Shown here one piece after another: positions 7,973 to 35,247 of a stretch of 35,626 nt of DNA. The first letter of the stretch is position 1; every line of letters starts with the position of its first letter. Below the pieces are notes generated by a model that was given only the letters and a program-made list of their open reading frames with translations, was not told the origin of the DNA and searched no databases. A program made the translations under genes and the position numbers. Source of the DNA: Bacteroidota bacterium (GTDB taxonomy: Bacteria; Bacteroidota; Bacteroidia; Chitinophagales; Saprospiraceae); NCBI GenBank assembly GCA_016124585.1, contig WGNL01000015.1:1-35626 (forward strand), in the 5' to 3' direction.

Positions 7973-10393
7973 TCAATCCGCCACCTTCATGAGCCTCGCA
8001 GTTTTGCTCAATTTCCCATCTACTTGGAAGCAAACAAAATAAGGTGCAGCTGGCAAATTGCTCAAATTAAACGGCAAACGTCCCCGCTTCTCTGTGAGTG
8101 AGTATTCTAGTACTATTTGACCCAAGTCGTTGAAAATCAAAAATTTGGCTTTGTTAAAGTCTTTTTTGATATAAAAATCTACTGTCAAATTATTTGCGGT
8201 AGGATTGGGGAAAAGCCTAAACTGCGCCAATTCATCCCGAACATTCAGCATTTCATCGGGAAGCGCATCCCATACCCTGAAATTATCTAGCCCAGCCTCT
8301 ACTATATTTGGAGTTGCGAAGCGATCTGCAACAGTGAGAATAAGCCGCATATCATCAGTGATTTGAAGAAAGTCGGCGATATCAAAAGTGTCTGCCGAAG
8401 TCCAAGCTTCCACGTTGTCAGCATCCGTAGCGATGACTGCCAACAACTTGGTTTCCAATCCATTATTGATGCTGATAACTAATGAATCATGAGCGACATT
8501 GTTGGAGATGGCATCCACCCACCAGTAATCAAAGCTCAACTGGGGGCGGTTGTACCTGCTCCGCAATTGCATGCTTGGAGAAGTCAAAGTCGTACTCCCG
8601 TCATCTACTTGATCGTCAAATATCGTGAGGCCCTTGTTTCCGGTCACGTAGGCATGATTGCCTAGATCGTTCGGAGAGTCGCCATCTGGTGCGAATTGCC
8701 TGTTCGCTGCCTTTGCTCCAAGGGGTTTTCCTCGCTCCCACAGACCACTGTTTGCCGTACTTGCTACCGTCCAACCTAGGTCATTGTTGAAATTATCGGC
8801 ATAGGCCAAGCCAAGTTCATAGCTAATATCATCGTCCGATTCCACAACGACATTTTCAGACAAATTTTCGTAGCCCCAGCTTCCAATGAACAACTGGTAA
8901 TTGCCTTCGAGAACATTTTTTAATTCAAAAACGCCATTTATATCAGTAACGCCTTCATAGCTAAAATCTTGATTTTCAAGTAGAATCTCTGCTTTCGCAA
9001 TGGGGCGTTTTGTGTTTTTATCCAAAACCACCCCACTCAAGTTGTAATCGGGCAGTGGTGTCATTTGCGCATCCAATACCGTAATTTGTCCAGCAACCAA
9101 ATCCGTTGACAATTCCAAACCATAAAAACCTTTGGCTTTGAAATGCACTTTAAAATTCCCTGCAGTGGCCTGTCCAGTTTTGTAGATTCCCGCAAAACTG
9201 CTAGTGGCGAGGTTTGCATCGCTTGACTGGATATCCACTTTTGCGCCAGCAATGACCTCACCGCTTGTCGCATTTGAAATAGTACCTTCGAGGTAAGTAG
9301 CCCGAGGATAGCTTGGTTTCAAAATATACAACCCATTTTCGATGTCTGTCGCTGCAATTAAACCGGAAGGGAAATACGGATACGCCCCCCAACAGCCATG
9401 AAAACCATCGTTAAAATCTGTATTGGTATCATAGTTTTCTACTTCAATCAAGCGGTCAGGACGAGTGGCATCCACCACTACCACGCCATCAGTGTAATGA
9501 GAAATGACCGCATAGTTCCCAATTGCATGGGCATTGTGGGGGATTACACCTGTATTCAGGGTGGCTACTGGCCGAAATTCGTCTAATAATTTTATGTCAT
9601 TCAAATTGGTCAGGTCGTAGGCAGCTGTGGGAGCATTCGCCCGTTCATCGGTAGTGAAAAGTACGCTGCCATTTGCATTAGCCCAGACGTTGTGACAAAA
9701 ATCGAAAGGCGTGGTTTGTGTTGCAAGCAACTGAATGTTCTGCTTGTCGCTTACATCCAGCACACCGAACTGGCCTTTGTAAATCTCAGCAGTGTACAGC
9801 AAGCCATTTTGAGCAAAACAATCATGTGCGTAAACAGGCGGAGTGTAAGCGACAAATTGTGGTTGTCCTGGTGTAGAAAATACATCAATAATGATAGGCC
9901 CTCCGCTGTTTTGGTCGCAACCCGATAAGTAGCAGTAACCATCGTCATCGATGTAAAGGTTATGACAAGTGTATAGGGAGTCTGTTTGTCCAGGCAACAC
10001 TGGCCGCCAATTGCTCCAAGTTACGCCATTTGGCAAGCCAGACAAATCAATGACCAAAATACCTTCGTGGGTGCCAGGCTGGTCAGCGGTCACATAAGCA
10101 AAATGCCCCCAAGTTTTTAAGTCACGCCAAGTGGATTGCTCACCGGGGATGTACTGAATCTCGACCGGATTCGTGGGATCTGCTAGACTAACAACGGAAA
10201 CCCCTCCCCGAAGCCCAACTAAAGCATACTCGGTTCCATCTGGAGCAGTGTAGCCCCACACATCGTTGGCCAAGGAAACATAGTCCAAGTGCGACAACAG
10301 CTCAAGTTGCTTTTGTGAAAATACAGGTGTGAAGAAAGCGAAAAAGGCAATCACCAAAAGATGGCTGATTTGGAAACTGGAAAGCTGTTTCAT
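7973..10393 (-). CDS. T9SS-exported choice-of-anchor-B / LVIVD-repeat protein
   Basis: 806 residues from ATG 10393, chosen because it opens a signal peptide (MKQLSSFQISHLLVIAFFAF). An ATG ten codons upstream is also in frame. Domain order: signal peptide; LVIVD/choice-of-anchor-B beta-propeller-like region to about residue 370 (ALVGLRGGVSVVSLADPTN, TDGVVVVDATRPDRLIEVE, ENGLYILKP); two carboxypeptidase-regulatory-like domains (about 375-525; YLEGTISNATSGEVIAGAKV and LSGVVLDKNTKRPIAKAEI); a jelly-roll-like domain (about 530-710); and a C-terminal type A sorting domain starting FRLFPNPTANNLTVDF. The last is the T9SS signal, so the protein should be secreted or surface-attached. Function unknown; extracellular binding is likely (inference). 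Confidence 0.92.
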   Translation of the reverse strand: MKQLSSFQISHLLVIAFFAFFTPVFSQKQLELLSHLDYVSLANDVWGYTAPDGTEYALVGLRGGVSVVSLADPTNPVEIQYIPGEQSTWRDLKTWGHFAYVTADQPGTHEGILVIDLSGLPNGVTWSNWRPVLPGQTDSLYTCHNLYIDDDGYCYLSGCDQNSGGPIIIDVFSTPGQPQFVAYTPPVYAHDCFAQNGLLYTAEIYKGQFGVLDVSDKQNIQLLATQTTPFDFCHNVWANANGSVLFTTDERANAPTAAYDLTNLNDIKLLDEFRPVATLNTGVIPHNAHAIGNYAVISHYTDGVVVVDATRPDRLIEVENYDTNTDFNDGFHGCWGAYPYFPSGLIAATDIENGLYILKPSYPRATYLEGTISNATSGEVIAGAKVDIQSSDANLATSSFAGIYKTGQATAGNFKVHFKAKGFYGLELSTDLVAGQITVLDAQMTPLPDYNLSGVVLDKNTKRPIAKAEILLENQDFSYEGVTDINGVFELKNVLEGNYQLFIGSWGYENLSENVVVESDDDISYELGLAYADNFNNDLGWTVASTANSGLWERGKPLGAKAANRQFAPDGDSPNDLGNHAYVTGNKGLTIFDDQVDDGSTTLTSPSMQLRSRYNRPQLSFDYWWVDAISNNVAHDSLVISINNGLETKLLAVIATDADNVEAWTSADTFDIADFLQITDDMRLILTVADRFATPNIVEAGLDNFRVWDALPDEMLNVRDELAQFRLFPNPTANNLTVDFYIKKDFNKAKFLIFNDLGQIVLEYSLTEKRGRLPFNLSNLPAAPYFVCFQVDGKLSKTARLMKVAD

Positions 10394-10421
10394 ACAAATT
10401 ATGTTATTGGGCGGTGGGGTC

Positions 10422-10453
10422 ATCGGGGCGTGAAGCTATCTCCATGCCCCGAT
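10422..10453 (-). terminator. Strong GC-rich hairpin between two genes
   Basis: Perfect or near-perfect 11-bp stem (10422-10432 with 10443-10453, one G-U) around a 10-nt loop. It sits 8 bp beyond the stop of the papain-fold gene and 28 bp before the start of the T9SS protein gene. No T-tract follows on the minus strand, so it may be an attenuating or RNA-end-stabilising hairpin rather than a classic intrinsic terminator. Confidence 0.45.
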
Positions 10454-10461
10454 AATCCATC

Positions 10462-11283
10462 TCAAAAACTGGGCACCAGGACGTATCCATTCTGAGCTAT
10501 TTCACCAAAATCATCAAAATCAATCCACAAATAGCCGTTCGTTCCCCACTCGGTCCCCCAAGAGCTTACTACCTCAAAGGCTTCAAGCTCCAAATTGTAG
10601 CCAACGACCATGAAAGGCAAGTTAATCCGGTCAGCATTTGTGCCAATGGACGACCAGAAGCGAGTATTGGTTACGTTTTGAAAACTCCGAGGCACCCTCA
10701 ATTCCACAACTACCGGATTCCCACGCATCAATGCTTTTTCCACCTCAAAGACTTTTTGCGATTCCCTGCTGGTTTCTTTGAATATCTGTAGGTAGTTGGC
10801 TATTCGGAATTTTTCAGTATTGGATGCCGTCTTTGGCACGCTTGGCGAATCATACGGCATTACATCAGCACTCACCGTGCCATCAGTAACGAGGAAACGG
10901 AGACCATTTTTCAGATCGGGCTGGCCTTCTTTTACAAGATTGATGGCCACATAGTCCGGACTGAGGTTTACTTTGTAATTCTTGCGATAATTGGTGTAAA
11001 ACTCCATACAAGCCGAAAGTATGTAGCTGGTAATTGTGCCGTGCTCACCCACTTTTCGTGGAGTCATCAGGTAGGTTTTGATGCTTTGCTCATTCATCAT
11101 CGACTTGGCATTGGAGCCAATGCCGGGCATGGTGACCATCAATTGGTCAATCATTTCTGGTGCGCTGATGCCGATTGCCATGCCCTTGATTGTAAAATCG
11201 GGGGGGATGGTGTCAGTCTGTGCGTTGGTGTTTACGAAGAAAATAGAAAGGAAAATACTGGAAAGCAGAAGCCGAGTTTGCAT
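10462..11283 (-). CDS. Papain-fold (C1-like) protein lacking the catalytic residues
   Basis: 273 residues from ATG 11283, which opens a signal peptide (MQTRLLLSSIFLSIFFVNTNAQ, cut near 22). An upstream frame extension has no leader. The order of motifs follows Bacteroidota C1A-type peptidases: GEHGTITSYILSA (where active enzymes have GTC), LSPDYVAINL, PYD, KALMRGNPVVVELRVPRSF, LPFMVVGYN (where active ones have HAMxVVGY), and SSWGTEWGTNGYLWIDFDDF. By this reading the catalytic Cys, His and Asn are replaced by Ile84, Leu222 and Ser240. The fold seems intact and the reading frame is undisturbed, so it is probably a functional pseudoprotease (binding or scaffold) rather than a decayed gene (inference). 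Confidence 0.78.
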   Translation of the reverse strand: MQTRLLLSSIFLSIFFVNTNAQTDTIPPDFTIKGMAIGISAPEMIDQLMVTMPGIGSNAKSMMNEQSIKTYLMTPRKVGEHGTITSYILSACMEFYTNYRKNYKVNLSPDYVAINLVKEGQPDLKNGLRFLVTDGTVSADVMPYDSPSVPKTASNTEKFRIANYLQIFKETSRESQKVFEVEKALMRGNPVVVELRVPRSFQNVTNTRFWSSIGTNADRINLPFMVVGYNLELEAFEVVSSWGTEWGTNGYLWIDFDDFGEIAQNGYVLVPSF

Positions 11284-11454
11284 TAAATATGTTTTTGTTT
11301 CGAAATAAGTCGCTAGGCCATTTAACGTGCATGGATGGGGGAAATGTTTTATGGCAGGGTTGATTTCTTGCTGGATAGTTGATGATTTGAGCATGAACTT
11401 GCCATTGCTCAATTACCAGCCTAGCCATCAAATTGAAATCTGTTTTTTAGGTAC

Positions 11455-12531
11455 TTATTTGCAAATAAGTGGCAACAACTTTTCCACGACATCAAGGTAG
11501 ACAATTCCACGCACTTTCTGTAAATCCTCACAGGCTTCCGTCAAACGATTCATGTTCATGTAAGCTTGGCCCCGGAGGTAAAGGAAATTGGCGTTGTTTG
11601 GGAATAATGCCAATGCCTCCGTCAATTTTGCAATGCCTTCTTCCTTCATCCCTTCATTGTAAATATCGCCGCCCTCCTCAGCGAGCTTGGTCGCTTTTTC
11701 ATACCGGGAAATAGCCTGCGGACAGCGCTTTGCATCAGGCATAAATGCAACTGTGATTTCCACAGAAGAAGGCACTTGGCGGCCTTTCCGAACGGCAGGA
11801 GACCATTGGCCCCAAGTTGCAGTGGCAGCTTTCACTGCTTCCCAACGGAATTCATTGCCTAGGTTCCAATAATCACTTAGGTCGAGCACTTCTACGTATC
11901 CATCTGGTTCGGCCAGCAAGGTCATGTCCATGGAGCCTATCAAGCAGCTATCTTTAAATTGCTCAGGATATATAAGATTTTTTGCAAAAAACTGCTCCAG
12001 CCCGGTATCGCCCGTTTTAAAAGTCAATGAATCATCCACTACAATGTAAACCGTGTCCCTCCCAACCATTACATAATCCTTAGGTTCTTCCAACTTGAAC
12101 TTAATGGGAATAGACACCAAGCTTCTGACGACTTTTCCGTTATTTTTACCCGGTACCCAAGTAAGTTTGGCTTCTTTCAGGGCATCGTTCATGCCATTAA
12201 TCACACGCATAGCCTCTTCTCCACAGCCACCTTCCAAGTCTTTGAGCAAATTAGGATTGGATATGTATCCATCTTTCTCAACCACAAAACTCACCACAAC
12301 CGACCCTTGTATATTCTTCTCCCTCGCCTCGTAAGGGTAGTTGACGTTTTGATTGATAAAAATCAGCAGGGCACGTTGGGCGCATTGGTTTTTGACGGCG
12401 ATGGTCGTATCCAGCATTTCACAACCTGGGAAACGAGGAACCTCCTCTACAATTTTATAGATGGTCGTGTCATTTTGGGCTAAGAGTGGTAATGTAAAGG
12501 CCAGCAAAAAAATGATTAGTAGTTGCTTCAT
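11455..12531 (-). CDS. Periplasmic protein with TonB C-terminal-like domains and TPRs
   Basis: 358 residues. Signal peptide MKQLLIIFLLAFTLPLLAQ. A TonB-C-like domain follows at about 45-155 (FINQNVNYPYEAREKNIQGS, VVVSFVVEKDGYISNPNLLK, GGCGEEAMRVI, LTWVPGKNNGKVVR). A second, more divergent copy is at about 175-265 (FFAKNLIYPEQFKDSCLIGS, WGQWSPAVRKGRQVPSSVEI). A TPR pair closes the protein at about 285-350 (EGMKEEGIAKLTEALALFP, ANFLYLRGQAYMNMNRLTEA). There is no N-terminal membrane anchor and no proline-rich linker, so it is not a classic TonB. Such energy-transducer-like proteins are common in Bacteroidota and their partners are usually unknown. First gene of the minus-strand run, divergent from the DUF4153 gene. 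Confidence 0.85.
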   Translation of the reverse strand: MKQLLIIFLLAFTLPLLAQNDTTIYKIVEEVPRFPGCEMLDTTIAVKNQCAQRALLIFINQNVNYPYEAREKNIQGSVVVSFVVEKDGYISNPNLLKDLEGGCGEEAMRVINGMNDALKEAKLTWVPGKNNGKVVRSLVSIPIKFKLEEPKDYVMVGRDTVYIVVDDSLTFKTGDTGLEQFFAKNLIYPEQFKDSCLIGSMDMTLLAEPDGYVEVLDLSDYWNLGNEFRWEAVKAATATWGQWSPAVRKGRQVPSSVEITVAFMPDAKRCPQAISRYEKATKLAEEGGDIYNEGMKEEGIAKLTEALALFPNNANFLYLRGQAYMNMNRLTEACEDLQKVRGIVYLDVVEKLLPLICK

Positions 12532-15503: not shown

Positions 15504-18500
15504 ATGCGTAAATCATGTTTTGCCCTGTTTTTGGCAATCTTTTTATTAAACGGTCAAACGTTGTTTTCCCAAAGTTGTGAGGGCAAAATTGTCGAAGACA
15601 AGGTTGTCGGTGGCACACAATTAATCAAAACAGCGCCTGAAGTAATAATTGTGCGTGGGACTTACACTTACAGCGTCGATTTCAGGAACGAACGTAACGG
15701 GATTTTTGCAAGGGTTTATTCAAAAGGCGGGGAGATTTTCAACCAAAACGACGAGCTGATTTTCATTGATGAAAACAATACCCGTCGCAGTTTTCGATTT
15801 GTAGAAATGGGTGAAATGGCAAAGGATGGTGGCACACCTACCCATCAAAATACGCTTGCCCTTGACCTTGCTTCCATGGAATGGCTTTCGGCAAACGTGA
15901 TTACAACGGTTTTCATAAAGAACAATGTAAAAAACCAGATGCTCAAGTTCACGGTAAATACTAACCGACAAGCTGAGTTTCAAAATGTAGCACAATGCTT
16001 TTTTCAAAAATTGGACAAGTCCCTTGTAAATGATAACCCATTGGTGAGCAATGAACGTCAGGTAACTGGCAATGAACCTATCAGCAAAACTGGTGGTACG
16101 CCGGTTTCACAGACAACTGGTGGGAGCGTAAAGCGTGTTGCTGATATAAGCCAGTTAAACGACCAAGAGCTGGCCGACCTTTATGATGAACTTAAAAGAA
16201 CCAAAGAAAGGGTAAGGCAGGAAATAGCAGCTGAAAATGATAGGCTTGAAAAATACAAATCCCAAATTCAGCAAGAAGTGGCCAGCGCTAGGGAACTTGC
16301 ACAAGCTGAAAAAACAAAATATGCGCAAGAAGTGCTGGAGGCAAGAAGGCGCTCCCAAGAAGAAATAAATAACAGCCAAGCTGAAAGCGCTGCGAGCGTA
16401 ATTTCAAACAAGGAAAAAGCTTCCACAGAGGTTGAAAAAATAAACTCATCAGTAGCCGAAGCCCGTCAACGGGCAAATGAAGAAATTCAGAAAGCGAAAA
16501 TGGAATCGGCAGAGCAGGTGGCTGCTGCCAGAGCTGCAGCCGCTGAGGAAATCAAAAAAAATAAAGAGGCCATGGAAATGGCCAAATTGCAGTATGCTGA
16601 TGAAATTTCCTCCGCTAGGGAAACCTCCGCCGCAGAGATGAAGCGAATTCGGGAAGAAAGTGCATTGGAAGTTGAAAAGGCCCGTACCCAAGCAAAACTG
16701 GAGCGGGAAAAAACGACAGAGGATGTTGTTGGGACTAAACGAAGTGCCTCGGATGAAATCCTGAAAGCCAAAGAAGAGGCAGCTGCAGAAGTGGCCAAGA
16801 CAAGGGAAGCAGCTGTAATCGAAAAAGAAAAAATAGCTTTTGAAGTAGCAGAAAGTAGGCGAAAAGCTGCGCAGGATAAAGTAGCTTTTCAAGAAAAGAA
16901 TTCAGCTGAAATTGCTGAAATGCAAGAAGCCGTAGCCCTTCAAAAGGAAGCTTCAGCTTTGGAAGTGACAGCTACCAAAAAGAAAGCTGCAGAGGAAATC
17001 CAGCAAACTCAAATGCAGGTTGCTGAGGAAAAAAGCCGGGCTGCCGAGGAAGTTGCAAAAGCAAAACAAGAAGCTGCACTTCAAGTAGCTGCGGCGAAAC
17101 AATTGGCGGAAGCAGAAAAATTAAAATCGGCAGAAGCAGTGAAAGCAGCCAAGGATGAAGCAGCTCGTCAGATTCAAGAGATTGCGAAGCAGGAAGCAGA
17201 CAAAGTAGCTGAATCCAGGGCGAAGGCCGAGGATGAGCAAAAGCGAATTGCTGAAGAAGTTTTGGCTGCAAAAAAACAAGCGGAAGCTGAAATCACCAAA
17301 ATACAACAGGAGGTGGCCGCCGCCATCGAAGCAGCCAAAGCCAATGAGGACAAAATAAAACAACAGGCTGCTCAAGAAGTGGCTGCCGCCAAGCAACGTG
17401 CATCAGAGGAGATAACAGGTGCTCAAAAAACAGCAGCACAAGAAGTACAAGAAGCGCAGAAGCGTTCAGATGAAGCTAAAAAAGTTTATGCCAGTGACGT
17501 AGCAGGCGCTCAAACAACTGCCCAAGACCGCATCAAACAAATCCAGGAGGAGGCTGCCAAATCTGTGCAAGAAGCAAAGGATAGGGAAAAACAAGCCAAA
17601 GAAATGACTGCCAGCGAAGTTGTTTCAGCCCGTGACAAGGCAGCTGCAGAAGTAGCAGCTGCTCAAGAAAAAGCCGCAAACGATATTGCGAAGGCTAAAG
17701 AACAGGCTGCACTTGCGGAGCAAAAATCTGCGAACGATGTAGCAGAAGCCAAGCGTAATTCCACGGAAAACATTTCGAAAATTAGGCAAGAAGAAGCCGA
17801 ACAAGTACGTCAGGCAAGAGAAAATGCGGCCACGGAAAAGCAAAAATTGGCAGGTGATGTAGCAGCGGCAAGGGAGGCATCCGCTCGTGAAATTGCTGCA
17901 TCGAAAGAACAGACTGCAAATGAAATTAAAGCTGCCAAGGAAACAGCAGCCAAACAAAAAGAAGCTTCTGCTTTAGAAGTCTTGGATGCAAGGAAAGATG
18001 CAGCCCAAAAAATTGCAAGCACTAAAGAAACAGCAGCCAAAGAAGTAGCTGCCACCCAAAAACAGGCGCAAGAAGCAATTGCCCAGGCACAGGAAGACAA
18101 GCAAAACAAACTTGCGGAGGTACAAGCCCAAATAGCAGAGGTAGAGGCTACTGCCCAAAAGCAGATAACCACAGCTCAGCAACAAGCCAATGCCTTGATA
18201 ATGGAACAATCCAAACGGGTGGCAGAGGCTCAAGCTCAATCGCAATCTGACATCAATGATGCTAAAAAACAGTCTGACGAGGAGATTGCAAAGCTGAAAA
18301 ATGAAACCGAAGCCAAGAAAACACAATATGCGAATGAAGCGGAGGAAGCTCGCAAACAATCCTTGGAGGAGATAACCAACGCTAAAAAAGAGGCGTCTGA
18401 TGCTGTTTATGCTGCTAAGCAGCAAGCAACCGACCAAGTTACCAAGGTGAAGGAGGATGTTGCCGTACAAATTGCGGAAGAACGTACTAAGTTGGAAACG

Positions 18501-18596
18501 GAGAAAAAACAGGTAGCCGAAATGGAAAAGCGCAAAAAAGATTTGGAAGCCGAAATCAAAAAACTGGAGGACGAACTTTCCAAAAAGAAAAATTGA
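15504..18596 (+). CDS. Exported giant coiled-coil protein with 18+11+11 superrepeat
   Basis: 1030 residues. Signal peptide MRKSCFALFLAIFLLNGQ, with likely cleavage after FSQ (23). Residues about 24-170 form a beta-rich globular head (TAPEVIIVRGTYTYSVDF, NGIFARVYSKGGEIF, NQNDELIFIDENNTRRSF) containing Cys25 and Cys165. A Gly/Thr/Ser linker runs from about 171 to 212. From about 215 to the end the chain is an uninterrupted Ala/Glu/Lys/Gln-rich helix with almost no Gly or Pro. From about 258 to 985 it is phased in units of 11 and 18 residues (see the repeat entry). The last ~45 residues switch to ordinary heptads (EMEKRKKDLEAEIKKLEDEL). There is no T9SS tail, LPxTG motif or OmpA domain. No family recognised; a long periplasmic or surface rod/spacer is the best guess (inference). 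Confidence 0.88.
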   Translation: MRKSCFALFLAIFLLNGQTLFSQSCEGKIVEDKVVGGTQLIKTAPEVIIVRGTYTYSVDFRNERNGIFARVYSKGGEIFNQNDELIFIDENNTRRSFRFVEMGEMAKDGGTPTHQNTLALDLASMEWLSANVITTVFIKNNVKNQMLKFTVNTNRQAEFQNVAQCFFQKLDKSLVNDNPLVSNERQVTGNEPISKTGGTPVSQTTGGSVKRVADISQLNDQELADLYDELKRTKERVRQEIAAENDRLEKYKSQIQQEVASARELAQAEKTKYAQEVLEARRRSQEEINNSQAESAASVISNKEKASTEVEKINSSVAEARQRANEEIQKAKMESAEQVAAARAAAAEEIKKNKEAMEMAKLQYADEISSARETSAAEMKRIREESALEVEKARTQAKLEREKTTEDVVGTKRSASDEILKAKEEAAAEVAKTREAAVIEKEKIAFEVAESRRKAAQDKVAFQEKNSAEIAEMQEAVALQKEASALEVTATKKKAAEEIQQTQMQVAEEKSRAAEEVAKAKQEAALQVAAAKQLAEAEKLKSAEAVKAAKDEAARQIQEIAKQEADKVAESRAKAEDEQKRIAEEVLAAKKQAEAEITKIQQEVAAAIEAAKANEDKIKQQAAQEVAAAKQRASEEITGAQKTAAQEVQEAQKRSDEAKKVYASDVAGAQTTAQDRIKQIQEEAAKSVQEAKDREKQAKEMTASEVVSARDKAAAEVAAAQEKAANDIAKAKEQAALAEQKSANDVAEAKRNSTENISKIRQEEAEQVRQARENAATEKQKLAGDVAAAREASAREIAASKEQTANEIKAAKETAAKQKEASALEVLDARKDAAQKIASTKETAAKEVAATQKQAQEAIAQAQEDKQNKLAEVQAQIAEVEATAQKQITTAQQQANALIMEQSKRVAEAQAQSQSDINDAKKQSDEEIAKLKNETEAKKTQYANEAEEARKQSLEEITNAKKEASDAVYAAKQQATDQVTKVKEDVAVQIAEERTKLETEKKQVAEMEKRKKDLEAEIKKLEDELSKKKN
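16275..18458 (+). repeat. Protein-level superrepeat of 18, 11 and 11 residues
   Basis: Cutting the helix before each [E/D/Q/K/S/A]-[V/I]-x-x-[A/S/T]-[K/R/Q] start gives segments of exactly 11 or 18 residues almost throughout. Examples of 11: DVVGTKRSASD, EILKAKEEAAA, EITGAQKTAAQ. Examples of 18: KVAESRAKAEDEQKRIAE, EVQEAQKRSDEAKKVYAS, QVRQARENAATEKQKLAG. The dominant order is 18-11-11 (40 residues), held for about 15 cycles with only a few dropped or added 11s. Amino acids vary strongly between copies while the spacing does not, so this is a maintained structural period and not a recent DNA expansion. Confidence 0.88.
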
Positions 18597-28601: not shown

Positions 28602-31310
28602 TTATATTTTTTTTGCTTTCTTCTTTAGAATTCCCTTAAGTAAAGGCAGCGAATATTCATAGATAGAATCTTGTCCCTTAATCTTTTTTTCCGTAAAAAG
28701 ATTTTCTAATGTAAAATCGATTTTATTACTTTCAAAAACATCGACTACTTTGTCGATTATTGCATTTTGAATCTTGCCACCGATATTTTCCATCCAGTTT
28801 TCAAGTAGAATAGGGGACTCATTGATTGAATTTCTTGTGATATTCAACTCAAATCTTGCTTTACCAAAAAAATTAACTTTCCCATAGCAGGATCCTATTG
28901 GTGCGATAGCCCATGCTTTTAACGGTAAAATTATTCCATCTTGATAAACTGAGCTGTTTAGTTGATATAGAATTAATGACTCTATTGCTGCAATTTTCTT
29001 ATCATCTTCATCAGAAACAAATTTCTTAACGACCTTACCTTTTTTATCAAGAATAGGTGACCTTTGATTTTCAAAAAACTTAAATTCTTTTAACGATTCT
29101 TCTTGAATGTCAGAAATCATTATACCATTGATATTCTCAGATAACTTCAACCTGTCATTGTCAGAGTAATTATTCACACTAAAAGAAGATTCGCTTCTGC
29201 TAAAACTAATTTCATTGACAAACGAATAAAAATCGTCTTCATTTTTGCCGTAATCCAAATCTCCTTCATAATCATCATCTTCTTCGTAAAAATCGTCATC
29301 CAAATCAATATCTTCTACATCTTCGTTCTGCCATTCATATTCACTCCTAACAATAATTTTGTCTTCATTGCGATACCTATCAGCTAGACCAGTATATCTA
29401 ATGATTGTTTTCTTATGACATCTTTCATGGAGAACAAAACCATGTACAGAAAACCACTCAATCCCAATTTCATCATCAATATATCTCACAGAGATAAAGA
29501 CTAAAGAATTTTCATGAATCAAATCATTCTTTGTAAAACTACTTGTCAGATATCTTATTTGAAACATTTTATCCAAAAATAAAAAAATAGGACTAGTGAG
29601 TTCTCTTCCAATATTGTCCTTGGGTTCAAAACGGTAGTGGAATGATGAATGAGTAAATTTATCCTTATTAGTCTTGTTATGATTATTTATCTCACTTTTA
29701 ATAATTGATAATAAATTTTCATTGTTTTCCATAGATTCGAAACTTAGACCGTCGGTAAGCCTTTCTTTAATGTTAAGGAATTCCGCAATGTAATTGATTG
29801 TGTCTAAATCAAAAACATTAATTGAAACAGAGGGTGAGTAAAACCTAGATTGAAGATAGATTAAAATGTCATTAAATGTTATCTTCTTGTTTAAAAGCAA
29901 CGTAATTATTGTTCCATATTCACATTCTTTAATCTCAGAATAGGCGTCCAATGCCTCCGTCTTCAACACTACTTCTCTTCCATCTTGGTCAATTGCTTCC
30001 CTTGATTTAGTATTTATAATTATTTTATTTGCTCTAACTAGGCATGAGACAAAACCAATCCCAAAACTTGCAATTGATGGAAAGGGGATTCCATTTTTAA
30101 TTTCGGTGCCTTTATATCCTGAGCTCGCAACATTGAATAGAAATTTCTTTAGTGAATCTTTGCCCATCCCTATACCATTATCTTGTATTGTCAGTTTTTG
30201 CGACTCATTGGAAAAATAAATGCTAACTAATGGTTGATAGTTTTTTAAAATCCATTTTTTGGGATTTGAGTATTTGACAATCCCGGCTGGGTTAATATAT
30301 ATCCATTTCAAACAAGCATCTATAGCATTTTGAATTAATTCTCTTATGAAATCAAATTTACCGGTATAGACTGATTGCGAAATTATGTCCCATATCCTAC
30401 CCTTCTCATCAATTTCAAATCTTAATGGCCATAGTTCGAAATTTGCATTCTTGTTTCTAGTAACTTTTGGATAAAATTTGGGCAGCTGAAACTTGCCAAG
30501 ATCACCCTTCAAAACGTATGTATTAGCGTGAAGTATATCTTGGCTCAAATAACCAAACCATTCTGTCCAAATAGCATGCTCTTCTTTTGAATCTGAAACT
30601 ACCTCTACTTCAATTATTTCTGTATCATAATTGAAGTGACATACTTTTTTATGCCTATCGTGATGAAAGTTTGATTCTACATTGTCGAAATAATTAGTAT
30701 ATTTTCTAAGGGGGTCACAACTCCTATCGGAATCTAAGTCAAGCAAATCTCCTACTCTTATCAATATTGACAAAACATTTACACGTAAAGGCTGTTCTAA
30801 TATGCGTTCTATTCTATTGAAATATTCATTAGAGTTCAAATCTTCCCATGTCATACCATGCGCCCTTGCAATGAACCCGATACACTTAACAAGTCTACTT
30901 GAATATTCGCTTATACTTGACATTCTTTCACTCAGAAATGAATTCAAGAATTCTTCCGACTTTTCATGGTGTATTCCTCTAAGTATTTTACTATCTATTT
31001 CCTTGTCTATCATACCAATATCATGAAATGCAACAGCTATGATTAGGGAAAATATCTCTATAGTTGATAGAGAGTTAAGAGCTTCATCAGTAATGATGGC
31101 CTCTATTCGTTTTAAAATTCTCCAAGAATGTTGTAAGTCATGGCTTGTATATGATGGGAATTTATATCTAACAAATCCCAATAATTCACTTGCGTCTCCT
31201 GAAAGAGATATCAATAATCCGTTCAAAACAGAAGCTACTGAATCACCTTTTTCAATACGATTCAATAATATTTTATGCAGTTTAAGGTGGTTTATTTCTA
31301 TGTTAACCAT
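28602..31310 (-). CDS. HD-domain plus GHKL/Hsp90-type ATPase protein
   Basis: 902 residues, intact. N-terminal HD phosphohydrolase-like domain (about 40-270): SHDLQHSW (His57, Asp58, His61), AFHDIGMID (His96, Asp97), IHHEKSEEF (His114/115), ARAHGMTW (His151) and RVGDLLDLD (Asp188). The GHKL/Hsp90-type ATPase follows: N-box FIRELIQNAIDAC (Glu324, Asn328, Asp331), G1 IQDNGIGMG (Asp377), G2 SFGIGFVSC (415-423), and CEYGTIITLLL near 464-473. A long C-terminal part includes a very acidic stretch (around 665-700). Both active sites look complete. Such fusions occur in bacterial conflict systems (inference from architecture). The start overlaps the stop of a methyltransferase tail by 8 bp, implying translational coupling. 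The gene is markedly AT-rich. Confidence 0.88.
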   Translation of the reverse strand: MVNIEINHLKLHKILLNRIEKGDSVASVLNGLLISLSGDASELLGFVRYKFPSYTSHDLQHSWRILKRIEAIITDEALNSLSTIEIFSLIIAVAFHDIGMIDKEIDSKILRGIHHEKSEEFLNSFLSERMSSISEYSSRLVKCIGFIARAHGMTWEDLNSNEYFNRIERILEQPLRVNVLSILIRVGDLLDLDSDRSCDPLRKYTNYFDNVESNFHHDRHKKVCHFNYDTEIIEVEVVSDSKEEHAIWTEWFGYLSQDILHANTYVLKGDLGKFQLPKFYPKVTRNKNANFELWPLRFEIDEKGRIWDIISQSVYTGKFDFIRELIQNAIDACLKWIYINPAGIVKYSNPKKWILKNYQPLVSIYFSNESQKLTIQDNGIGMGKDSLKKFLFNVASSGYKGTEIKNGIPFPSIASFGIGFVSCLVRANKIIINTKSREAIDQDGREVVLKTEALDAYSEIKECEYGTIITLLLNKKITFNDILIYLQSRFYSPSVSINVFDLDTINYIAEFLNIKERLTDGLSFESMENNENLLSIIKSEINNHNKTNKDKFTHSSFHYRFEPKDNIGRELTSPIFLFLDKMFQIRYLTSSFTKNDLIHENSLVFISVRYIDDEIGIEWFSVHGFVLHERCHKKTIIRYTGLADRYRNEDKIIVRSEYEWQNEDVEDIDLDDDFYEEDDDYEGDLDYGKNEDDFYSFVNEISFSRSESSFSVNNYSDNDRLKLSENINGIMISDIQEESLKEFKFFENQRSPILDKKGKVVKKFVSDEDDKKIAAIESLILYQLNSSVYQDGIILPLKAWAIAPIGSCYGKVNFFGKARFELNITRNSINESPILLENWMENIGGKIQNAIIDKVVDVFESNKIDFTLENLFTEKKIKGQDSIYEYSLPLLKGILKKKAKKI

Positions 31311-31466
31311 GCTTGTTTTGTTTATAAAATTCTTGGCAAGTTACCTCCCCCCACTTCCCAAACAACCACCCCACCCTACTTGCCTCGCTCTCAAACTCCT
31401 TCCGCACCCCGTAGCAGGCATCCACGGCGGCGTCGAGTTGTTGATGCAGGGCCAAAAGTTGTCGTA
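31303..31466 (-). pseudogene. MmeI-like DNA methyltransferase 3' end, copy 1
   Basis: The minus strand reads LLALHQQLDAAVDACYGVRK, then EFESEASRVGWLFGKWGEV and a short tail to the stop at 31303. This is the conserved C-terminus of type IIG/IIL (MmeI-like) methyltransferases, without the rest of the gene. It is one of two copies in direct orientation (other at 31850-31990) and overlaps the HD-ATPase start codon by 8 bp. Confidence 0.75.
31343..31457. repeat. Direct repeat, left copy (partner 31875-31988)
   Basis: About 115 bp, roughly 90% identical by eye to 31875-31988 in the same orientation (shared runs include ACTTCCCAAACAACCACCCC and CCTCGCTCTCAAACTCCTTC). Both encode the methyltransferase C-terminus. 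Homology ends abruptly at the membrane-protein segment between them. Confidence 0.9.
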
Positions 31467-31481
31467 GCGTTTTTAGTGGAG

Positions 31482-31847
31482 TCAAGATGTCTGATTTTGT
31501 TTTTTATGGTTATCAAGGTAATAAATGTGTCTCCAAAGAAAAACTATCACTGTCACAATCAGCCAGTAAAGACTTAGGACTAGTGTAGAATTATCCTCGT
31601 AAGAAATAAGTTGTAAAATAAATCCAATCATAGAGATTGAACTTAAAGCCCATGTAGCGCCAAAAGCGAGACGCTTTAGGATAGTATCATCATCTTCTAA
31701 ATCGTGATAGGCATGGAGGCAAATTAATAAAGTCAGGCTCACAACAATGTTCAACAAGGTGTATGGACCATCTGCTGTCATTATAGTGATAATTCCAGCT
31801 AATGCAATTCCTAGCATTGTGCCTTCGTTGCTTCTTTGATTTATCAT
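31482..31847 (-). CDS. Small polytopic membrane protein between two methyltransferase tails
   Basis: 121 residues from ATG 31847, which follows the stop of methyltransferase tail copy 2 by 2 bp; the frame is open further upstream but overlaps that tail. Four hydrophobic segments: MLGIALAGIITIMTA, LLNIVVSLTLLICLHAY, LSSISMIGFILQLIS and LVLSLYWLIVTVIVFLW, with an acidic loop HDLEDDDTILKRL between the second and third. AT-rich compared with the flanking repeats. No family recognised. Small membrane proteins are frequent effectors in defence operons, but that role is inference here. Confidence 0.7.
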   Translation of the reverse strand: MINQRSNEGTMLGIALAGIITIMTADGPYTLLNIVVSLTLLICLHAYHDLEDDDTILKRLAFGATWALSSISMIGFILQLISYEDNSTLVLSLYWLIVTVIVFLWRHIYYLDNHKKQNQTS

Positions 31848-31849
31848 AG

Positions 31850-32406
31850 TCAATAATTTTTTTGAGCTTTTACCACCTCGCCCCACTTCCCAAACAACCA
31901 CCCCACCCTCCTCGCCTCGCTCTCAAACTCCTTCCATACACCGTAGAAGGTATCCACGGCAGCGTCGAGTTGTTGGTGCAGGGCAAAATCTTATTCAGGT
32001 CGTAGTGGTCTATGATTGTGTTTTCGATAGTTTGAAAAATAGCTTTTAGTTTTTTAACAAACTGCCCGGTGCGCAGGCGGATGGCCCGCACCACGTCGAA
32101 GTCGAGGCGGCGCAATTCCCGGTAGGTGACCACGAGGAAATTGCCGCAACCGCAGGCGGGGTCGAGGAAACGCAGCCCGTGCAGCTTGCGCTGGAAGGCT
32201 TCCAGTTTCTTATCGAGCTTGACGAAATTTCTACGTCTTATTTTAAAGTTTAGCAGTAACTCGTCCCAAAAGGAATGGGCTTCGCCTTTTTCGTCGGTTT
32301 CGTGCGCCCAATCAAGGGCGAAGCGGCGGGCATTGTCGGTGTATTGTTGCCAGTGGTCGGCAGTCGTAGTTTTTGCAGCAATGATTGGGAGGCTTACGGG
32401 TTTCAT
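31850..32406 (-). pseudogene. Internally deleted MmeI-like (type IIG/IIL) DNA methyltransferase
   Basis: From ATG 32406 the protein begins like the N-terminus of MmeI-type enzymes (NARRFALDWAHETDEKGEAH, SFWDELLLNFKIRRRNF, about 25-62). It jumps directly to the SAM-binding motif I LRFLDPACGCGNFLVVTYRE (78-97), so the nuclease domain and the region before the methylase are gone. After IRLRTGQ (about 115) nearly all of the methylase and target-recognition region is missing. A frameshift near 31985 separates the C-terminal tail LHQQLDAAVDTFYGVWKEFE, which ends in VKAQKNY at 31850. Intact enzymes exceed 900 residues. Without the PD-(D/E)xK region and motif IV it cannot be active. Confidence 0.85.
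31875..31988. repeat. Direct repeat, right copy (partner 31343-31457)
   Basis: Second copy of the ~115-bp methyltransferase-tail repeat. The two copies are about 530 bp apart start to start and bracket the small membrane-protein gene. Confidence 0.9.
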
Positions 32407-33540: not shown

Positions 33541-35247
33541 CTAAAGCCTTTCCTCATTTCCATTGATATCTAAAAGCACAACCGAGCCATCAGTAGTTAA
33601 AGTTGCCCATGCAACCCAGCTTTCAAAGTTTTTTTGGTCGCTGAGAGCTAAAAACTTCTGTAAATCTTGTGTATTGAGTTTATAAAGCGGTTCGATGCTT
33701 GAATACTTGAAGGGTGTTAATTGGTTATACTCAATATTGTACAGCGCAAAAGAATCATCATTCTTGATGACGTAATATTTATTATCTATGGATAAGGTCA
33801 TCAAATTGGGCAATTCAGCTTTTTCATTACCTGAGTCATCAAAAACAAGGTATGTTTTTGGCTTTTTCTTGGTTTCAATTAGGAGTTTATCCAGTCTGAG
33901 AAATTTGCCGTAATAACTTGCATATACTTTTCCATCAAAGGAGTGAACCTCAATCAATTCATCTTTCCTTGTCACATAGGCACTGTCAGATAGAACGTAT
34001 AAGTCATCATAAATGGGTTGGTGGATTAGACCTTTTGAAACATGCCAAAGCCCATATTTGAGCCAAATACTATCATCTATTTTCTGACCCAAAGTGACAT
34101 ATCCAGTTGAATCGTACTTAAAAACAAGTTCACCTTTAATAACTTTTCTCTTTTCAAGGACAGATGGTAGGGCATAAGAGTAAATTGTATCCAAAACCAA
34201 TTCTCCTTTATAATCAACTATACCATAATGTTCATTGCTCGTTTTGACGACAAAAAAATTACTGCGTTTGATGGTTTGAAACAAATTATATTGAGGTGGA
34301 ATTACGATTTCGAGTTGTCCGTTCATTAGGCCATAATACTTATTATAGCCCTTTTGATTGTAAAAAATAAAATTATCATTGCTAACTGGCTCAAGAATAT
34401 TGGAAAAATTTAAAACATGTTCCTTTTGGTTCTTAATATCGTATAAGGTTCTGGTTTTTCCGTCATAATTATAGAGATAAGCCCAGTCCTTGTTTATCCA
34501 ATCTAAAAATGAGAATTTTGCAGGAACAATTGTCCTGCAAAGACTGTCGGCCACACCATTTGCATATACTTTTCTTCCCTCTATCAGGTAGTCTTCTAAT
34601 GTATTCCATCTATCGGAAGAAAGATGACCTGAGAATCTACAATTATAGCTACCTATTTTTTTTCCTTTCAAATTGTACCTAATATAATGTTTTGATAAGG
34701 TATCATAGGCAATAATCCCCAAATATTCATCATCCAAAGTAATATTTTCTGGAATGATTAATTTGCCTTTGAGGTCAATAGCATAACGTTTTTGCCCTTT
34801 ATAACCTATGAAATATTTATTAACGGCTCCATAGGCAACAGACTCATATTCCAAGGGAATGACTTGTTTTCCCTTGTCGTTAATAACACCATATTTCTTT
34901 TTTTGACCTACTATCATAAGCGGTGCAAAATCATCTTGAATATAGTCATAATCAAAAGGTATGACCATCTGATGCTTGATGTCAGCAAATCCAAATTTAC
35001 CAAAGCGGTTTCTGCATTTGTGGAATTTCTTGATATGCTGAAATTCACTGCACAGCCTCAAAGAATCCTTTAAATACTTTTCTTCATTTTTTTGATATTC
35101 CATTTTTTTCATCGTCGCATTATCATACTCTCTTTGCGGCGGCGGTATCACTTCATTTGGCTTATTGCTCGGCACATGAATAATTTCAATCTGAGCATTC
35201 AATTGACAGGAAAGCATGGCGACTAGAAAAATGATTGTGTATTTCAT
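33541..35247 (-). CDS. Exported WG-repeat protein
   Basis: 568 residues. Signal peptide MKYTIIFLVAMLSCQLNAQ (the Cys at 14 may be part of a weak lipobox). A charged linker is followed by multiple WG-type beta repeats, recognisable from FGKFGFADIKHQMVIPFDYD, KKYGVINDKGKQVIPLEYES, YYGLMNGQLEIVIPPQYN and EHYGIVDYKGELVLDTIY, becoming more degenerate toward the C-terminus. WG-repeat proteins are common in Bacteroidota and probably form a propeller or solenoid for binding; no enzyme activity is expected. AT-rich, monocistronic, with no T9SS tail. Confidence 0.88.
   Translation of the reverse strand: MKYTIIFLVAMLSCQLNAQIEIIHVPSNKPNEVIPPPQREYDNATMKKMEYQKNEEKYLKDSLRLCSEFQHIKKFHKCRNRFGKFGFADIKHQMVIPFDYDYIQDDFAPLMIVGQKKKYGVINDKGKQVIPLEYESVAYGAVNKYFIGYKGQKRYAIDLKGKLIIPENITLDDEYLGIIAYDTLSKHYIRYNLKGKKIGSYNCRFSGHLSSDRWNTLEDYLIEGRKVYANGVADSLCRTIVPAKFSFLDWINKDWAYLYNYDGKTRTLYDIKNQKEHVLNFSNILEPVSNDNFIFYNQKGYNKYYGLMNGQLEIVIPPQYNLFQTIKRSNFFVVKTSNEHYGIVDYKGELVLDTIYSYALPSVLEKRKVIKGELVFKYDSTGYVTLGQKIDDSIWLKYGLWHVSKGLIHQPIYDDLYVLSDSAYVTRKDELIEVHSFDGKVYASYYGKFLRLDKLLIETKKKPKTYLVFDDSGNEKAELPNLMTLSIDNKYYVIKNDDSFALYNIEYNQLTPFKYSSIEPLYKLNTQDLQKFLALSDQKNFESWVAWATLTTDGSVVLLDINGNEERL

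Follow-up and report, generated by a model that had tools for sequence, protein, structure and literature searches.

A 40-residue hydrophobic superrepeat in a predicted, probably exported rod protein of the Saprospiraceae

What kind of protein repeats its hydrophobic positions every 40 residues, and is such a spacing selected? The question is raised by the window analysed here (35,626 nucleotides, contig WGNL01000015.1, from a bacterium of the family Saprospiraceae), in which an open reading frame at 15504-18596 of the forward strand, stop included, encodes a protein of 1030 aa. A preliminary description had singled out positions 16275..18458, corresponding to residues 258-985, as an exported rod or spacer composed of 18-11-11 residue cycles.

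The 40-residue unit

Autocorrelation of V, I and L over residues 207-1030 was compared with 500 shuffles. Peaks were obtained at lags 40 (z 11.6), 80, 11, 29, 51, 69, 22 and 18, which include the four lags, 11, 18, 29 and 40, that the preliminary description had predicted. In the rod, lag 7 gave no peak (z -0.8), indicating that the canonical heptad period is absent, and lag 33 lay at z -0.6 as against 11.4 for lag 40, indicating that an uninterrupted 11-residue period is absent as well. When V, I, L and M were chained by steps of 11 or 18 only, a chain of 35 residues (477-928) was found, whereas 1000 shuffles gave a mean of 4.3 and a maximum of 9, and ten other choices of steps reached 2-12. 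The order of the steps was periodic by three, an interval being equal to the third-next interval in 87% of cases (matched by 0 of 5000 permutations). Exact residue identity peaked at lags 40, 80, 120, 200 and 160, and the periodogram of the window protein peaked at 3.636, the mean pitch of 40/11 that had been proposed. The autocorrelation, the step chain and the identity peaks bear out the 40-residue superperiod, and the observation of a superrepeat is confirmed as real.

A circular model with 40 states, trained on 74 proteins, placed the core positions at steps of 3,4,4 / 3,4 / 3,4,4 / 3,4,4. The unit is thus 11+7+11+11, or 40 residues in 11 turns at 3.636 residues per turn, and by autocorrelation, circular model and step chain the superrepeat rod extends over residues 259-985 (16278..18458). 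The three 'a' positions held a hydrophobic residue in 98, 91 and 92% of cases; their fourth counterpart (position 11), beside the main sector, is mostly Lys, which explains why a segment of 18 had been read in place of 11+7. In the window protein, the 'a' positions were V, I, L or M in 55 of 57 cases, the exceptions being one K and one A. It contains 15 complete 40-residue units and one of 39 residues at 808-846, with register slips at approximately 347, 510, 847, 874 and 975, and its longest run without a slip, residues 528-846, covers almost eight units. The described 18-11-11 order over about 15 cycles therefore holds for the V/I steps and for the number of complete cycles; the run is interrupted by slips, and the "18" is itself composite. 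At the DNA level, TRF at score 30 found the gene free of tandem repeats, suggesting that the repeat is old.

The segments next to the rod have other periods. The lead-in helix at residues 223-258 (16170..16277), delimited by lag analysis and by an AlphaFold helix starting at residue 223, is heptad-like, with strong lags of 4, 7, 11, 14 and 18 over residues 220-258. Lag analysis also identified a C-terminal heptad coiled coil at residues 986-1030 (18459..18593), the lags 7, 14 and 21 reaching z 26.2, 24.7 and 13.1 from residue 990 onward in 74 proteins.

Phase and conservation among homologues

Homologues were found at 80 loci, 60 of which are titled Saprospiraceae or Saprospirales; isolates carrying one include Lewinella cohaerens and Phaeodactylibacter xiamenensis. 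The 73 complete proteins among the 80 are 913-1083 aa long (median 1007). In 76 of 77 homologues of at least 500 aa, lag 40 ranked fourth or higher (z 5.3-13.7; L149 borderline), and the z of lag 7 was at most 0.8 in the 77. The spectral peak had a median of 3.636 with a 5-95% range of 3.634-3.638 (n=74). In ten further genomes from an order-level search, all ten peaks fell between 3.634 and 3.638, lag 40 ranking fifth in two (L166 and L167). Four homologues, L142, L143, L144 and L150, fitted the 40-state model only partly (10.7-16.8 units).

Distances between anchor residues were used to follow the phase along the rod. Three of them, 83 residues (281-364), 89 (364-453) and 134 (662-796), were identical in 73 of 73 proteins having both anchors (of 74). 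The interval 453-662 measured 209 residues in 43 of 74 proteins, 191 in 16, 180 in five, 198 in four and 224 in three, with 235, 246 and 155 occurring once each, and the interval 796-950 measured 125 in 44 of 73 proteins, 154 in 13, 114 in ten, 136 in four and 147 in two. Relative to the window protein, these two variable intervals gave nine distinct differences (7, 11, 15, 18, 26, 29, 37, 40 and 54), of which 11, 18, 29 and 40 were the commonest and 7, 15, 26, 37 and 54 were rare. All nine lie no more than 0.18 turn from a whole number of turns, as would be expected for 37% of lengths 1-60. In the same proteins, the linker (F166-L226) had 24 different lengths, from 42 to 83, and the tail had 36. 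Because the intervals of the rod are fixed or change in phase while linker and tail vary freely, the phase appears to be selected, as had been claimed; homologues losing the spacing would have spoken against this claim, and within the family the opposite was observed.

Among distinct rod indels, 21 of 25 deviated from whole turns by no more than 0.15 turn (for lengths 1-60, 28% would be expected to do so), a count that overstates independence, since related sequences share indels and aligners may favour in-phase gaps; the anchor distances are for this reason the better evidence of phase. Out-of-phase lengths also occurred, of 2, 56 and 59 residues, all in the divergent L142 and L144. Alignment gaps and anchors located two length-variable zones in which gaps cluster, the first at residues ~502-540 by gap starts (17007..17123), with a register slip at ~510, and the second at residues ~866-905 (18099..18218), with slips nearby; gaps elsewhere came from L142 and L144. 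Many of the 74 proteins show register slips near residues 346, 508, 845 and 940.

These data bear on whether the rod could be a single stable helix or a low-complexity spacer, its periodicity being left over from old duplications without selection on phase. The high E/K/R/A content and the relation of the units by duplication would suit such a protein. Its length changes are in phase beside a freely varying linker and tail, however, its 'a' positions are hydrophobic in 91-98% of cases, and each unit is kept among orthologues, so that we regard this explanation as scarcely credible.

Conservation of the units was compared within and between proteins. Median identity to the window protein was 0.45-0.53 in the rod, depending on the region, 0.46 in the head and 0.30 in the tail. 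A unit was on average 51% identical to its orthologous unit and 29% identical to other units (ten units), and in 589 of 703 comparisons no unit matched better than the orthologous one. Column entropy in blocks of 20 residues was 0.97-1.46 bits at residues 361-460 (16584..16883), the best-conserved stretch of the rod, and 1.38-2.49 bits in the rest of it. The drift of residue identities that had been described is thus found between the units of one protein; among orthologues, the units are conserved about as well as the head. Since each unit is conserved in its own right, the rod is more than a drifting spacer, and the spacer part of the earlier reading was not upheld.

Pure hendecad, heptad, LEA-like and low-complexity readings were considered and rejected on the basis of lag 33, lag 7, charge asymmetry and phase conservation.

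Export, head and predicted geometry of the rod

A signal-peptide-like hydrophobic start, judged by eye, occupies residues 1-23 (15504..15572), in line with the signal peptide described before. In 73 of the 74 proteins having C25, the first mature Cys, Gln precedes this residue at -1 or -2; such xxQ cleavage sites are usual in Bacteroidota. A lipobox before C25 was found in 0 of 74 proteins, giving no indication of a lipoprotein. Cleavage probably takes place just before C25, and the protein is probably exported, as judged from the N-terminal sequences. No type IX sorting domain (Pfam CTD types) was matched in the window protein, the tail of which is the heptad helix.

The head domain, residues 25-190 (15576..16073), was delimited by invariant columns and by AlphaFold, which predicted a beta sandwich with a terminal helix, in agreement with the beta-rich head noted from the sequence. 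Its first 16 blocks of ten residues had pLDDT values of 89-98. C25 and C165 were invariant among the homologues in the alignment columns and may form a disulfide. The head, for which an IalB-like beta sandwich was considered, had no clear PDB match by sequence or by fold, and Pfam searches of 61 heads returned scattered weak matches only (best E 0.0014, in one member). The window protein as a whole matched 0 Pfam families at E 0.1, and hence no Pfam anchor domain, and no NCBIfam model at E 1. The linker, residues 191-222 (16074..16169), was defined by anchor distances and AlphaFold; its length varies freely, and residues 194-213 were below pLDDT 50.

The same head also occurs at the N-terminus, in one to four copies, of TPR-CHAT proteins in related genomes (L177:711-3611:-, L178:500-3412:+, L040:3855-7784:- and L176:359-5701:-). 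Their CHAT domains were matched at E 3e-57 to 2e-63, and their starts appear signal-like by eye. Second head copies with internal stop codons, apparently decayed paralogues, were seen in three genomes (G007, G833 and G735).

On a helical wheel drawn at 40/11, V/I fell at 342-0 degrees and an Ala/V/I seam at 279-333 degrees. A row at 9-36 degrees was 75% K/R and 2% D/E, and a row at 243-270 degrees was 57% D/E and 9% K/R. A second Ala stripe lay at 45-99 degrees, with the K/R row between it and the main seam. At positions of the acidic row, D/E was accompanied by K/R at +5 in 37% of cases and by K/R at +4 in 0.3%. The opposite charges on the two flanks fit a parallel, in-register pairing. When adjacent rods were scored for charge stagger, no clear offset emerged; an axial charge period of 10 residues was obtained, which is a consequence of each 40-residue unit having four segments.

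Amphipathic 11-mer helices that lie on a surface are known from LEA proteins, apolipoproteins and synuclein, and the rod shares with them hendecad segments and a composition rich in Ala, Lys and Glu. A helix lying in this manner on membrane, wall or polysaccharide is nevertheless very unlikely here, because a pure 11-mer period is missing (lag 33), K/R occupies one flank and acidic residues the other, and the window protein has no Pfam match at the threshold given above.

The AlphaFold model of the full-length monomer was weak (pLDDT 68, pTM 0.28). It predicted helix over nearly all of residues 223-1029, in the pieces 223-403, 410-537, 546-700 and 706-1029, with breaks at 404-409, 538-545 and 701-705, and the predicted helical superrepeat region comprises about 730 residues. 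Low-confidence residues 518-550 and 869-897 overlap the length-variable zones; 404-412 and 701-707 do not. No Pro follows residue 215 in the window protein, and Pro occurred inside the rod in one of 74 proteins. The rod contains four glycines, of which Gly 410 adjoins a predicted break. Residues 250-850 of the rod had no match among PDB sequences at E 0.01.

The four helical pieces of the monomer model, and the overlap of both length-variable zones with low-confidence residues, would be in keeping with helices that fold back within one chain into an antiparallel bundle shorter than a 100 nm rod. We consider this unlikely: the breaks at 404-409 and 701-705 fall in fixed-length intervals, identical in 73 of 73 proteins, and lack Pro in the window protein; antiparallel pairing would bring like-charged flanks together; the model has a pTM of 0.28; and the authors of CCfrag have reported spuriously bent models of coiled coils (PMC11676326).

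An unstrained helix has been given 3.63 residues per turn (PMC9858780). Since 40/11, or 3.636, is almost equal to this value, the bundle would be nearly untwisted and straight, and residues 252-985 would measure about 109 nm if fully extended. Computed against 3.63, the supercoil would be right-handed with a pitch of ~300 nm; the estimate swings with the reference, being right-handed at 53 nm against 3.60 and left-handed at 145 nm against 3.65. With cores of small Ala residues, hendecad coils can form dimers, Scy and FilP being examples (PMC9858780), and a dimer is likeliest for the rod because its core is Ala-rich.

A bundle of three or four strands, right-handed or straight, or dimers that use the second Ala stripe to pack into filaments or sheets, would account for the stripe itself, set off from the seam by the K/R row, and for the conservation of individual units beyond the needs of a spacer; hendecad cores, moreover, are reported to require small residues, Ala for instance, unless more strands are present (PMC9858780). 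With a main hydrophobic sector as narrow (279-0 degrees) and Ala-rich as that of the rod, and with position 11 mostly Lys, these arrangements are possible but rather doubtful.

On balance, we favour, with some confidence, an exported structural rod that forms a parallel, nearly unsupercoiled coiled coil. Once the signal peptide is cleaved off, the mature protein would begin with a beta head closed by a disulfide, followed by a flexible linker and a single, very long helical stretch. The helices would pair in parallel and in register along the V/I and Ala seam, which recurs in the pattern 11+7+11+11 between a row of Lys/Arg and, on its other side, a row of Glu, and the C-terminal heptad zipper together with the heptad-like N-terminal turns would set the register. 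The structural reading is well grounded in the sequences; the coiled coil, its parallel pairing, low oligomeric state and straightness are inferred, as are location and function, the rod being tentatively placed on the surface or in the periplasm with a structural task.

Known rods, distribution and meaning

The Streptomyces cytoskeletal proteins Scy and FilP are cytoplasmic and have no signal peptide, and the Scy repeat comprises 51 residues (7+4x11), one hendecad more than the 7+3x11 of the rod, whose period is 40 and not 51. Scy and FilP belong with DivIVA-like cell-division proteins, whereas the rod protein has a signal-like N-terminus and a beta head. DivIVA (PF05103) was not matched in the window genome, the control matching seven of 14 genomes (five above the cut-off), nor in the window protein (Pfam, E 0.1). 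The likeness lies in long Ala-rich coiled-coil rods with hendecads (PMC9858780), and parallel dimers have been proposed for FilP (PMC6599971). In our best reading of the sequences, the rod would be a design cousin of Scy and FilP, exported and without a DivIVA head.

Tetrabrachion, from the S-layer of Staphylothermus marinus, is a tetramer built mainly on hendecads, whereas the rod has one heptad per 40 residues. Pfam and PDB searches of the window protein found no sequence relation to it. It resembles the proposed rod as a surface protein whose long coiled-coil stalk is non-canonical (PMC11676326). Trimeric autotransporter stalks and Omp-alpha are likewise similar in combining an exported head with a long coiled-coil stalk. 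These proteins have heptad or 15-residue periods and membrane anchors, in contrast to the rod, which shows neither lag 7 nor a Pfam anchor domain. The article by Martinez-Goikoetxea and Lupas 2023 (J Struct Biol) is reportedly a survey of hendecad families; in the literature searched outside it, neither a 40-residue hendecad/heptad repeat nor this protein was found. Decompositions of periods up to 40 have been enumerated, with no such protein named in the excerpted text (PMC9369452). As far as the search reaches, that survey apart, the 40-residue superrepeat is undescribed and would represent a variant of the hendecad-based coiled coil.

Of the genomes sampled, the head profile matched 36 of 298 in the order and four of 395 in the class, all in the family of the window and with its own genome counted. 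G081 (L041:3894-6497:+), weakly related and belonging to a different family of the order, has the same type of head and a pure 18-residue rod period at 3.604, and so lends itself to comparison with the 40-residue rod. Periodicity thus holds steady across the family and is different in the only relative observed outside it. This 18-residue period and the four partial fits to the circular model would count against the earlier interpretation, which the sequences support in part.

Near the rod genes, a carbamoyltransferase gene (pyrB-like) lay upstream at 51 of 72 eligible loci, a phosphoribosyltransferase gene (pyrR-like) was present at 41 of 64, and a DUF4369-DUF5106-AhpC/TSA thioredoxin-like gene lay downstream at 27 of 62; these gene names are interpretations, each cluster being named from one Pfam-annotated member. 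The window has instead an MGS-like gene and a short-chain dehydrogenase gene, relatives of which occurred at six and 15 of 80 loci. The neighbourhood was set aside as a guide to function, as it looks like housekeeping synteny and gives no functional link or mechanism.

Elsewhere in the window, positions 7973-12531 (-) encode a carboxypeptidase-regulatory/LVIVD protein with a type IX sorting tail, a papain-like cysteine protease and a TonB_C-TPR protein, a cluster kept upstream of the rod gene in four to five near relatives. At 28602-32406 (-), an HD-CE and HATPase protein (PF24391, PF13589) lies near a short open reading frame matching MmeI methyltransferase (PF20473), possibly the remains of a defence or restriction locus, and a 568-aa protein with WG repeats (PF14903) is encoded at 33541-35247 (-).

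Speculatively, and with little confidence, the proteins might be a new class of exported, intermediate-filament-like rods, straight and ~100 nm long, their repeat (7+3x11 in 11 turns) tuned against supercoiling, which would pack laterally through the second Ala stripe and the conserved units into an envelope skeleton of the Saprospiraceae; in some members the head might also dock TPR-CHAT proteins bearing the same head.

The results also point to a probably exported rod in a group of environmental bacteria. Within the family, 124 of 248 genomes were matched by the head profile, other head-bearing proteins accounting for a few of the matches. The family provides a natural test of coiled-coil theory, as it holds a spacing of 3.636 over some 700 residues, and its 73 complete homologues are material for examining how length and phase are selected. 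In evolution, the rod has gained or lost almost exclusively lengths by which the seam stays in phase; together with the spacing, this predicts a rod that is almost unsupercoiled.
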